From Salinibacterium sp. TMP30 (GTDB lineage Bacteria > Actinomycetota > Actinomycetes > Actinomycetales > Microbacteriaceae), in contig NZ_CP151642.1 in the NCBI RefSeq assembly GCF_038397785.1, positions 558,001 to 622,000 on the forward strand: a stretch of DNA of 64,000 bases. The letters run 5' to 3'. This document shows, piece by piece, positions 47,935-51,668 of the stretch. A program made the position numbers and the translations under genes. How positions within the stretch are numbered: the stretch's first letter is position 1; each line of letters starts with the position of its first letter. The notes beneath the pieces are model-generated. The model saw nothing but the letters and a program-made list of their open reading frames with translations. It did no database searches and was not told the DNA's origin.

Positions 47935-47940
47935 CACGCC

Positions 47941-47986
47941 CACTACATCTAGGGTTAGCGGCAACGACCACCCACGATATATAGTG
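47941..47986 (+). promoter_or_regulatory. Tandem NrdR-box-like sites of the nrd operon
   Basis: CACTACATCTAGGG (47941) and CACGATATATAGTG (47973) resemble the 16-bp NrdR box. Their starts are 32 bp apart, the usual three-turn spacing of NrdR box pairs. The second is a near-perfect palindrome and includes a TATAGT that could itself be a -10 box. NrdR would repress nrd genes when dATP is high. Confidence 0.8.
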
Positions 47987-48048
47987 GTGGAACCGCTTGA
48001 CCGGGGGTCGCGGATAGAGCAATTTATAGTCATTTTGAGGGAGTTTTT

Positions 48049-50499
48049 GTGGCAATCACAGTCGTCAAGCGCAACGGTACGCGGGAGCCATACGATGCGA
48101 ACAAGATCAACCTCGCAATTGAAGATGCCAGCACTGGTCTCGACGACAACATCACGTGGGTTACCCAGATCGCATCCGAGCTCGAGCTGACCCTCTTTGA
48201 CGGCATTACGACCCAACAGCTCGACGAAGCAGTCATCCAAGTTGCCCTTCAGAACGTTAAAGATGACCCTGCATTTGATGTCGTGGCTGCACGCCTGCTG
48301 CTCAAGACCATCTACAAGCGTGTGCTCGGTGACTACACCGACGCAGCTGACCTCAAAAAGCTGCACAAAGAGCACTTCGCCCCCAATGTCACCCGTGGCG
48401 TGGAAGAGGGCCTGCTTGACCCACGCCTCACCGAGATGTTCGACCTCGAAGCACTCGCCGAGCACCTTGAGCCCGCACACGATGAACTGCTCAAGTACAT
48501 CGGTGTTGTTACGCTCAACAACCGCTATGGCATCAAGGGTCGCAACGGCGACGCTCTTGAGGTCCCTCAGTACTTTTGGATGCGCATCGCCATGGGCCTC
48601 TCGCTGAACGAAGCGAACCCCAACGAGGCTGCGCTCAAGTTCTACCAAAAGATGTCTAGCCTCGAATACTTGGCTGCCGGCTCCACTCTCGTCAACGCGG
48701 GAACGATTTACCCGCAGCTGGCCAACTGCTTCGTGATGGAAATGCAAGACGACATGGAGCACATCGCTAAGACCACGCGCGATGTCATGTGGCTCACCAA
48801 GGGCACCGGCGGAATTGGCCTCTCGGTCACCAAGCTGCGGGCGCAGGGTTCGCCCATCCGCTCTAACAACACCACCTCCACCGGCCCGATCCCGTTCATG
48901 CACACGATCGACTCCATCCTGCGTGCGGTTAGCCGTGGTGGCAAGAAGTTCGGCGCGCTGTGCTTCTACATGGAGAACTGGCACATGGACTTCCCCGAGT
49001 TCCTCGAACTCCGCAGCAACTCGGGTGACCCCTACCGCCGCACCCGCACCGCCAACACTGCGGTGTGGATCAGCGATGAATTCATGAAGCGCGTTCAGAA
49101 CGATGACGCGTGGTACCTCTTCGACCCGCTCGAAGTTACCGACCTCAACGAGCTCTACGGCAAAGCATTCTCTACGCGCTACAACGAATACGTCGCCATG
49201 GCTGAGGCCGGCGAAATGCACATGTTCAAAAAGATCGGCGCTCGCGAACAGTTCAAATCGATCCTCATTTCCTTGCAGACCTCAAGCCACCCCTGGCTCA
49301 CCTTCAAAGACACGATCAACAATCGTGCGCTCAACAACAACACGGGCACGATTCACCTCTCCAACCTCTGCACCGAAATCACGCTGCCGCAAGACGAAGA
49401 CAACGTCTCCGTCTGCAACCTTGCCTCGATCAACCTTTCGCGTCACCTTCTGCCGGAAGGCGGAGTCGACTTCGCGAAGATCGAAGAGAGTGCACGACTG
49501 GCCGTACGCCAGCTCGACAACCTCATCGACATCACGCGCTCCAGCGTGAAAGAGGCCGACTTCTCCAACGAGCAGAACCGTGCTGTTGGCCTCGGTGTGA
49601 TGGGCTTCACCGACATCATCGAGAAGCTGGGCTACAGCTATGAGAGCGAAGAGGCCTATGACCTCATCGACGAAATCATGGAGCACGTCTCCTACGCCGC
49701 CATCGACGCCAGCACCGAACTCGCGAAAGAGCGCGGTGCCTATGCAAACTTCGAAGGCAGCCGTTGGGCCGAGGGCCTCGTGCCGCTCGACTCCATTGCG
49801 CTCACCGAAGAAGACCGTGGCATGGAGATCAAGGTCAACCGCAAGACACGACTCGACTGGGATGCCATGCGCGAGAAAGTCAAGGGGGGAATGCGCAACG
49901 CAACCCTCATGGCTATCGCCCCCACCGCGTCCATTGGGCTCGTTGCTGGCACCACGCCCGGTCTCGACCCGCAGTTCTCGCAGATCTTCAGCCGCTCAAC
50001 CTCGAACGGCAAATTCCTTGAAGTGAACCGCAACCTCGTGTCGACGCTTCAGGAGCATGGTCTCTGGGAGAAAAACCGCGAAGCGATTCTGCGCAGCCAG
50101 GGTGACATCCAAAATGTTGCTGGTATCCCGGATGACATTAAGGAAGTCTTCAAGACAAGCTTCCAGCTGTCGCCGTACTCGTTCCTTGAGGTTGCCGCTC
50201 GTGCCCAGAAATGGATCGACCAGGCCATCAGCCGCAACATGTACCTCGAGACCCGTGACCTCGGCGACATGATGGATATCTATTTCGACGCCTGGTCGCG
50301 TGGCGTCAAGACCACCTACTACCTGCACATGAAGCCTCGCCACCAGGCAGAGCAGTCCACGGTGAAGGTCAACAAGTCAGAAGAAATTTCTTCGACCAAG
50401 GCCGCAACCTCATCCTCTGCTCAGCAGGGTGCAGCCCCCGCAAGCTCAACGCCAGCACGCCGAGGCTTCGGCGGATTCTCTAAGAAAGAAGACTCATAA
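48049..50499 (+). CDS. nrdA: Ribonucleoside-diphosphate reductase, large (alpha) subunit
   Basis: 816 aa, class I. The N-terminal ATP-cone (about residues 3-95) has VVKRNGTREPYDANKI. The catalytic barrel has the redox Cys in QLANCFVM, the N-C-E triad in HLSNLCTEI, the partner Cys in SVCNLASINL, and the radical-relay Tyr pair in KTTYYLHMKP. The start is GTG at 48049, with GAGGGAG upstream. The C-terminus is a Ser/Ala/Lys-rich linker ending KKEDS with no cysteine. The regenerating Cys pair expected there is missing from this frame and appears in the overlapping 26-codon frame that follows. Confidence 0.95.
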   Translation: MAITVVKRNGTREPYDANKINLAIEDASTGLDDNITWVTQIASELELTLFDGITTQQLDEAVIQVALQNVKDDPAFDVVAARLLLKTIYKRVLGDYTDAADLKKLHKEHFAPNVTRGVEEGLLDPRLTEMFDLEALAEHLEPAHDELLKYIGVVTLNNRYGIKGRNGDALEVPQYFWMRIAMGLSLNEANPNEAALKFYQKMSSLEYLAAGSTLVNAGTIYPQLANCFVMEMQDDMEHIAKTTRDVMWLTKGTGGIGLSVTKLRAQGSPIRSNNTTSTGPIPFMHTIDSILRAVSRGGKKFGALCFYMENWHMDFPEFLELRSNSGDPYRRTRTANTAVWISDEFMKRVQNDDAWYLFDPLEVTDLNELYGKAFSTRYNEYVAMAEAGEMHMFKKIGAREQFKSILISLQTSSHPWLTFKDTINNRALNNNTGTIHLSNLCTEITLPQDEDNVSVCNLASINLSRHLLPEGGVDFAKIEESARLAVRQLDNLIDITRSSVKEADFSNEQNRAVGLGVMGFTDIIEKLGYSYESEEAYDLIDEIMEHVSYAAIDASTELAKERGAYANFEGSRWAEGLVPLDSIALTEEDRGMEIKVNRKTRLDWDAMREKVKGGMRNATLMAIAPTASIGLVAGTTPGLDPQFSQIFSRSTSNGKFLEVNRNLVSTLQEHGLWEKNREAILRSQGDIQNVAGIPDDIKEVFKTSFQLSPYSFLEVAARAQKWIDQAISRNMYLETRDLGDMMDIYFDAWSRGVKTTYYLHMKPRHQAEQSTVKVNKSEEISSTKAATSSSAQQGAAPASSTPARRGFGGFSKKEDS

Positions 50500-50579
50500 T
50501 GAACCGAGAGAACTCCATCGACGAGTACTACGTTCCGTCCGACCCCATGGACGATCTGCAGTGCGATAGCTGCCAGTAA
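50499..50579 (+). CDS. 26-codon frame encoding the missing NrdA C-terminal CxxC tail
   Basis: Starts with ATG on the nrdA stop (TAATG), in the -1 frame, and reads 26 residues ending MDDLQCDSCQ then TAA. CxxCQ is the usual last block of class I NrdA large subunits, where the Cys pair re-reduces the active-site disulfide. Its codons are rich in G/C at the third position, like real genes here. The -1 frame is closed by TAA at 50481, so only a short overlap is open. It may be a separate peptide made by re-initiation, a programmed frameshift product, or the sign of a sequencing indel. Confidence 0.7.
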   Translation: MNRENSIDEYYVPSDPMDDLQCDSCQ

Positions 50580-50597
50580 CGAGCACGGGAATGCTCC

Positions 50598-50672: not shown

Positions 50673-51668
50673 ATGGGAATTCTAGGAACAGGCCTGCAAG
50701 ATGGCCTATTGCTGAAGCCAATCAAGTACCAGTGGGCGATGGACCTGTACGACCAGGCCGTAGCCAACACCTGGTTCCCGAATGAGATTCAGCTGGGCGA
50801 AGACATCGCCGACTTCAAGAAGATGACTGATGAAGAGCGTCACGCGGTGACCTTCCTCATGAGCTACTTCAACCCGAACGAGCTGCTCGTTAACAAGGCA
50901 CTCGCCTTTGGTGTGTACCCCTATGTTTCAGCCGCAGAATGCTCGCTCTACCTTGCGAAGCAAATGTGGGAAGAAGCAAACCACTGCATGAGCTTCGAGT
51001 ATGTGCTCGAGACCTTCCCGATCGACCGCGAAGCCGCCTACAACTCTCACGTTGACGTGCCGTCAATGGCTCGCAAAGAAGAGTTCGAAATGAAGTACAT
51101 CCGTCGCATGACGGAACAGACCCTTGACATCAACACCATCGAGGGTAAGCAAGACTTCATCCGCAACCTCGTTGCCTACAACGTCGTCCTTGAAGGAATC
51201 TGGTTCTACTCGGGCTTCATGGTTGCTTTGTCGTTCCGCCAGCGCAACCTGTTGCGCAACTTCGGTTCGCTCATGGACTGGGTTGTTCGCGACGAGAGCT
51301 TGCACCTCAAGTTCGGTATCAACCTGATCCTGACCGTGCTCGAAGAGAACCCTGAGCTTCAGACGGAAGAGTTCGCCGACGAGATCCGCCAAATGATCTT
51401 GGATGCTGTGGAGATGGAAGAGGCCTACAACCACGACCTGCTCCCCGGCGGCATCCTCGGACTCAACGCCAACTACATCAACCAGTACGTGAAGTACCTG
51501 GCTGACCGCCGCCTTGAAGAGCTCGGATTCGAGGCCCACTACAAGGTCTCAAACCCCGCCAAGTGGATGGCAACCGCCAATGACACTCTTGAGCTCGTAA
51601 ACTTCTTCGAATCAACCAACACATCGTACGAGGCGAACGCGTCAGCAACAACCAAGGTAAAGGTTTAG
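50673..51668 (+). CDS. nrdB: Ribonucleoside-diphosphate reductase, small (beta) subunit, class Ic-like
   Basis: 331 aa. Ferritin-like metal-cofactor protein that generates the radical for NrdA. With the start at the ATG at 50673, the metal ligands are Glu70 (NPNELLV, where E. coli has Asp), Glu101 and His104 (WEEANHCMSF), then Glu in VVLEGIWFYSGF, and Glu/His in RDESLHLKFG. The radical Tyr position (His104 + 4) is Phe108. Glu plus Phe is the Chlamydia-type class Ic pattern with a Mn/Fe cofactor and no tyrosyl radical. An upstream GTG at 50619 would add 18 residues but lies in a hairpin. Confidence 0.93.
   Translation: MGILGTGLQDGLLLKPIKYQWAMDLYDQAVANTWFPNEIQLGEDIADFKKMTDEERHAVTFLMSYFNPNELLVNKALAFGVYPYVSAAECSLYLAKQMWEEANHCMSFEYVLETFPIDREAAYNSHVDVPSMARKEEFEMKYIRRMTEQTLDINTIEGKQDFIRNLVAYNVVLEGIWFYSGFMVALSFRQRNLLRNFGSLMDWVVRDESLHLKFGINLILTVLEENPELQTEEFADEIRQMILDAVEMEEAYNHDLLPGGILGLNANYINQYVKYLADRRLEELGFEAHYKVSNPAKWMATANDTLELVNFFESTNTSYEANASATTKVKV

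Follow-up and report, generated by a model that had tools for sequence, protein, structure and literature searches.

Introduction

In the textbook mechanism of ribonucleotide reductase (RNR), a flexible C-terminal tail re-reduces the active site; being disordered and attached, the fused tail is difficult to study. A large subunit made of two polypeptides is reportedly encoded by phage Aeh1, in which the break lies within NrdA and was caused by a homing endonuclease gene. The arrangement in the Microbacteriaceae described here shares with Aeh1 the presence of two polypeptides and differs in that only the redox tail is separate. Phages carry RNR genes and other auxiliary metabolic genes for host nucleotide metabolism; the phage-borne genes described below likewise have a presumed function in host nucleotide metabolism, with the difference that they comprise no more than the tail of roughly 25 residues.

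In class I enzymes, a C-terminal cysteine pair, which is itself re-reduced by a redoxin, reduces the active-site disulfide, according to the available text of PMC5704485 and PMC9669993. The available text of PMC4520616 describes a division of this task in the split class II RNR of Pseudomonas aeruginosa, in which NrdJb performs the disulfide exchange in trans with an apparent Kd of 260 nM and is required in vivo. In the accessible parts of PMC4520616 and PMC5704485, NrdJa and NrdJb are presumed to descend from a single-chain enzyme, and the likeness to the locus studied here, which in our case is one of sequence only, is that the redox cysteines reside on a separately encoded polypeptide. The two systems differ in that NrdJa/NrdJb is a class II (AdoCbl) enzyme, whereas ours is a class I enzyme with an adjoining nrdB gene, and in that NrdJb corresponds to a cysteine-rich zinc-finger domain, whereas our tail has 26 residues, two cysteines and no such folded domain. 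Unlike NrdJb, the class I tail (about 20-40 residues) often has a second, unlinked gene behind an NrdR-like operator, along with phage and plasmid copies. Compared with an ordinary class I NrdA, the catalytic core is the same, and related enzymes from outside the family have nearly the same tail, but fused.

The nrdA locus of Salinibacterium sp. TMP30

The window analysed here is a stretch of 64,000 nucleotides (C1:558001-622000) from the genome of Salinibacterium sp. TMP30, which consists of a single contig of 2.69 Mb. It contains the following features:

48049..50499, + strand: nrdA, class I RNR large subunit, GTG start, 816 aa, without the C-terminal redox cysteine pair
50341..50496, + strand: C-terminal linker of NrdA, without cysteine, final residues RRGFGGFSKKEDS
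50497..50501, + strand: TAATG, overlap of the nrdA stop codon and the tail start codon, with overlaps or near-overlaps also in most relatives
50499..50579, + strand: tail microprotein gene, 26 aa, MNRENSIDEYYVPSDPMDDLQCDSCQ, C-terminus CDSCQ
50562..50576, + strand: C-D-S-C-Q codons, presumed redox pair, both cysteines and the glutamine invariant in 101 of 101 adjacent tails
50676..51668, + strand: nrdB, class I small subunit, class Ic-like, Phe at the position of the radical Tyr

The domains identified in NrdA were PF03477, PF00317 and PF02867 (ATP-cone, all-alpha and barrel), and the protein scored 1604 bits against the class I model NF005101 of NCBIfam, as compared to at most 387 bits against the adenosylcobalamin- or B12-dependent models. 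The alignment to solved class I large subunits, of which 5im3_A was the best, reaches residue 783, and C227, C441, C456 and Y758/Y759 fall in aligned motifs. By analogy with the E. coli and human enzymes, we take the three cysteines to be those of the active site and Y758/Y759 to form the radical relay. The protein contains only four cysteines (C227, C305, C441, C456), none of them close to the C-terminus, the last being residue 456 of 816. This confirms the initial annotation, made from the sequence of the window, in which the nrdA frame was described as ending in a cysteine-free linker with the other catalytic residues in place. The best PDB match of NrdB was 1syy, which we take to be the class Ic protein of Chlamydia trachomatis, and F107 of NrdB (in HCMSFEY) aligns with the corresponding Phe of that structure, presumably at the position of the radical tyrosine. 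Since both proteins have a phenylalanine here, the enzyme appears to be of a tyrosine-less, Ic-like type.

The junction of the nrdA stop with a 26-codon frame ending in CDSCQ was also found as originally described, and the gene-like third-base composition of this frame was borne out by a GC3 of 0.85, versus 0.54 and 0.31 when this DNA is read in its remaining two frames; the GC3 of nrdA is 0.76. No family in Pfam or NCBIfam matched the tail ORF. In the NrdA tree, the row nearest to the window protein was that of marine actinobacterium PHSC20C1, with Salinibacterium strains next.

A (R/K)(R/K)GF motif was observed in one or two copies in the linkers of all 107 unfused NrdAs of the family, and in at least one copy in 22 of 26 fused NrdAs. 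A role for the motif as a dock specific to the split enzymes is unsupported, since it is found in the fused enzymes as well.

Conservation of the separate tail in the Microbacteriaceae

We classified 114 nrdA 3' ends from whole genomes, 108 from the Microbacteriaceae and six from other families of the order; one locus at which the contig ends inside nrdA (L028) and five fragmented genomes (G103, G119, G165, G188, G219) were excluded from the count. An adjacent tail ORF was identified at 101 of the 108 family ends, while one had a tail with a broken nrdA frame, five had none and one was at a contig end. A largely overlapping set of 80 named loci gave 77 adjacent tails, two ends with none and one contig end. 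The C-terminal 25 residues were free of cysteine in every NrdA that was assigned an adjacent tail or none between nrdA and nrdB. All six NrdAs from outside the family are fused, three of them with tails of the type CPVDP...LQCE(S/A)CQ. The comparison with relatives called for in the initial annotation thus shows two conserved frames in the family and fused enzymes only outside it, which supports the first of its three explanations, a redox microprotein acting in trans.

The adjacent tails share a near-invariant core, V-P-x-D-P-M-D-x-L-Q-C-x-S-C-Q, of which the two cysteines and the terminal glutamine are fully invariant. For the 16-codon core of the 101 sequences, pS was 0.55 and pN 0.13 (pN/pS 0.24), as compared to pN/pS values of 2.5 and 3.5 when the same DNA was read in the shifted frames. 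These values rule out a chance ORF, and the adjacent tail ORFs are under purifying selection. When the first ATG or GTG at or after -7 is taken as the start, 95 of the 101 tails could begin within -5 to +6 of the nrdA stop, an arrangement that makes re-initiation at TAATG, or translation coupled there, plausible.

A single-base sequencing error that splits an ordinary fused nrdA gene, also proposed initially, would find an example in L037, the single case in which the nrdA frame is broken near the same point, in a genome that is 86% complete. The explanation is refuted for the family as a whole by the 102 of 108 ends that have a separate tail frame with proper stop and start codons, finished single-contig genomes included, and we regard its probability as negligible. 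The tails are located in all three frames relative to nrdA (87 in frame 2, eight in frame 0 and six in frame 1) and the distance from nrdA to the tail varies between relatives, so that neither a single base error nor a slip site explains the split.

In a tree of NrdA (72 rows, residues 471-765), 23 fused enzymes form one group with a support of 94/95. The branches of the distant outgroup are very long, so that the direction of evolution may have been either fission or re-fusion of the tail. A split nrdA was also observed in a metagenome-assembled genome labelled Cellulomonadaceae (L245), which groups in the tree with a Microbacteriaceae genome and is probably mislabelled.

Genomes with unlinked tails only

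Six genomes contain only tails that are unlinked to nrdA, and they occupy four places on the NrdA tree. In five of these (G202, G118, G240, G187, G041), nrdB follows within about 100 bases of nrdA with no tail ORF in between. The single tail of G202 is 1.87 Mb from nrdA on the contig, or about 0.2 Mb if the contig is circular; G118 and G240 have one tail each on contigs other than that of nrdA; G041 has one tail at a distance of 33 kb; and in G187 there is a single match on the chromosome, a second on a small contig known to be a plasmid, and a third that is weak. In the sixth, Naasia lichenicola, nrdA and nrdB are separated by about 200 tail-free bases and one tail is located on another contig.

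These genomes also bear on the remaining explanation of the initial annotation, according to which a programmed -1 frameshift, or else readthrough of the stop codon, yields a fused NrdA and the separate ORF is only apparent. The purine-rich AAGAAAGAAG just before the nrdA stop of the window would suit such an event, as would the identical frame of the tail in 87 of 101 relatives. However, the other 14 tails are in different frames and at varying distances, the interval from nrdA to nrdB is devoid of a tail in six genomes, and the unlinked tail gene has its own start codon and a ribosome-binding match, so that frameshifting cannot fuse its product to NrdA. The frameshift is thereby refuted, and recoding of either kind is, in our judgement, very improbable.

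Co-occurrence of the tail with nrdA

The tail was present in all 91 family genomes with this nrdA gene and absent from 105 of the 108 without it (Fisher p 6e-54, a test that ignores shared ancestry). Two of the three exceptions have a tail and no detected nrdA (G177, which is 77% complete, and G235, 94%); the third, G205, has a weak match with an E-value of 0.0014, which looks like a chance match. Another genome of the same genus as the window, G019, has only a distant NrdE-like match and no tail.

In a draw of genomes from the phylum, which is dominated by other groups and includes at least five family genomes, the tail was found in none of 395 other genomes at an E-value of 1e-5. A draw of 297 genomes from the order yielded 22 tail matches, all of them within frames of 869-1108 aa. 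Of these, 20 (L375-L394) were retrieved and all carry an NrdA included in the tree; the eight fused C-termini that were inspected all end in the tail.

It has to be considered that the microprotein is a regulator or an assembly peptide, for example one that docks NrdB, thioredoxin or NrdR, with its cysteines merely kept, while a redoxin or small thiol reduces NrdA directly. Conservation extends N-terminal of the cysteines (VPxDPM), as might be expected for such a peptide, and DTT can reduce the active sites of some RNRs, as noted in the available text of PMC4520616 and PMC5704485. Against this, both cysteines are invariant, and a near-identical sequence (e.g., CPVDPMEALQCESCQ) is the covalent C-terminus of the fused relatives, where a normal tail is expected. 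We therefore consider this alternative unlikely. The fused relatives carry nearly the same peptide as their C-terminal tail. Read most simply, the microprotein takes over that job in trans, in the manner of NrdJb in the split class II enzyme.

Unlinked tail genes and NrdR-like operators

The initial annotation covered neither the second, unlinked gene for the tail with its NrdR-like operator nor the copies on plasmids and phages. A profile of the tail matched 94 of 199 family genomes, with one place in 12 genomes, two in 57, three in 19 and four to six in six; 81 of the 91 genomes with nrdA have at least two places. The second places were examined in the retrieved loci, among the matches listed. 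In the window's genome, the second gene is located at C1:480255-480338, about 126 kb from nrdA, and encodes MDNDNDNVGGYAIPVDPMDLLQCDSCQ after AGGAGG.

Upstream of nrdA, the window contains two putative NrdR boxes, scored by sequence with an assumed consensus that was used in all of our scans:

47940..47955, no strand: NrdR-box-like 16-mer, distal, CCACTACATCTAGGGT; pair score 40/48, equalled by 0 of 100 shuffles
47972..47987, no strand: NrdR-box-like 16-mer, proximal, CCACGATATATAGTGG; 32 bp from start to start, 16-bp spacer

Binding of NrdR to 16-bp boxes with spacers of 14-17 bp is described in the available text of PMC12051234, and the spacer of the window pair lies inside this range. An NrdR-like pair was found upstream of nrdA in 56 of 57 named, oriented loci, a count that leaves eight minus-strand loci aside; the exception was N. 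lichenicola (L229).

We also scanned 29 chromosomal-looking orphan tail genes, one from each of 29 genomes and picked as being of this type. All 29 have an NrdR-like pair that scores above all 100 shuffles, with the proximal box beginning 57-133 bases before the start codon and the boxes 32-35 bases apart. Each gene has a ribosome-binding match of 4-5 bases, by which the starts were chosen. A second scan covered the other retrieved non-adjacent tails, that is 45 loci without a nearby nrdA, of which six yielded no row; among the 39 scorable tail rows, 28 were paired and 11 (10 places) unpaired, and 16 further loci with an NrdR-like pair were identified. In total, paired NrdR-like boxes precede 45 orphan tail genes, including that of the window's genome, with start-to-start distances of mostly 32-33 bases. 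No such pair was detected at 10 of the non-adjacent places scanned: two belong to known plasmids (L173, L395), one lies close to an integrase-like gene (L179), and seven are in G106, G117, G177 and G190. The same neighbouring gene, MurB-like by eye, was present in 26 of 32 orphan loci, some of which share a genome.

Weaker tail-like copies were observed in the window's genome at C1:264734-264811 (L179), which ends in CEACE, and at C1:265238-265309 (L355), which reads on beyond CQ; both are 4-6 kb from the integrase-like gene (by eye), and a third weak match is at position 290693. In L180 (G177) and L184 (G190), the tail sequence ends longer frames with similar N-terminal parts (…MW.AAHA…), and these tails are perhaps fused to another protein.

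Tail genes on plasmids and in phages

We searched 50,697 phage records using tblastn with tails of 26 and 27 aa, and 72,556 plasmids with the tail of the window. Four phages were matched, namely Clavibacter phages CMP1 and CN1A, Pontimonas phage phiPsal1 and Pseudanabaena phage Pan2, as were 19 plasmids, all from Microbacteriaceae. The E-values, from 2e-3 to 10, are weak because the query is short, and matches may have been missed. Seven ORFs were inspected, from the four phages and three plasmids, with the Clavibacter plasmids left out. The tail ORFs of phiPsal1, CMP1 and CN1A are not annotated as coding sequences; the gene is present on these genuine phage genomes.

The 26-aa tail of Pan2 (L266:2989-3069), MDDFDTIDGFACPNDPADLVSCESCQ, is from a phage with a cyanobacterial host and has an extra cysteine that recalls the fused actinobacterial tails. 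On a plasmid of Leifsonia sp. ZF2019 (L269:3977-4078), the gene for a 33-aa tail bears the name 'ribonucleotide-diphosphate reductase subunit beta' (WP_223361114.1), which seems to be wrong.

A search of IMG/VR yielded 324 stretches coding for a relative. Among the best 80 of the 324, 79 tails end in CQ followed by a stop codon. Matches to nrdA or nrdB were present in the retrieved flanks of two stretches, with many flanks truncated where the contig stops. Flanking proteins, one from each of 10 contigs, all matched PHROGs, among them terminases, tail proteins, an endolysin and one family with unknown function. The RNR large subunit was sought in 43 of the 83 tail-bearing virus and phage loci (40 IMG/VR records and three phages, each searched whole) and was absent from 42 of these, with the proviso that the virus contigs may be fragments or prophages. 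An NrdR-like pair with a score of at least 34 was absent from 82 of the 83 loci scanned, and the exception adjoins nrdA.

One IMG/VR record (G656; L283/L359) has a tail ORF upstream of an nrdA gene without its own tail, with nrdB following. This nrdA contains an in-frame, intein-like insert of roughly 300 residues near residue 440.

Discussion

The separate frame, its conservation and its association with nrdA lead us to propose that a redox microprotein acting in trans very probably completes the class I (Ic-like) reductase of the window and of those Microbacteriaceae that use this nrdAB, with unlinked copies behind NrdR-type operators and further copies on phages and plasmids. In such a three-part enzyme, NrdA would provide catalysis, NrdB the radical, and the microprotein, mostly of 21-40 residues and ending in VPxDPMxxLQC(D/E)SCQ, the C-terminal cysteine pair that is normally fused to NrdA. 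That the microprotein is so short counts against the proposal. Coupled translation of the nrdA mRNA would yield the microprotein, and most genomes would have a further source in the unlinked gene, which may be repressed by NrdR through an NrdR-like operator of its own. It would bind NrdA, and after each turnover its thiols would enter the active site and reduce the C227-C456 disulfide. Thioredoxin or a comparable donor would then return the oxidised microprotein to its thiol form. Copies on plasmids and phages, nearly all without an operator where scanned, presumably sustain the host reductase during replication.

The initial annotation had considered a separate tail to be a new arrangement for RNR. 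Redox cysteines supplied in trans are already known from class II (NrdJa/NrdJb). Among the matches listed from the open literature, there was no description of a class I redox microprotein with an unlinked gene and phage or plasmid copies, and the available parts of PMC9531940 and PMC9669993 make no mention of a separate class I tail.

A detached tail would allow re-reduction to be titrated by addition of a 26-mer peptide, whose affinity could be measured, and the turnover of NrdA could be made dependent on an added part. With fewer than 40 codons, the tail genes are also of a class that annotation misses or mislabels, as in phiPsal1, CMP1, CN1A and the Leifsonia plasmid. We think it likely that the tail is an independent, mobile and multi-copy redox microprotein, with an unlinked gene controlled by NrdR and operator-free phage and plasmid copies that reduce the host enzyme, which would place it among the smallest auxiliary metabolic genes. 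If so, the supply of the tail would be a further layer of RNR control in these bacteria, and the tail a peptide by which phages may raise dNTP synthesis in their hosts.
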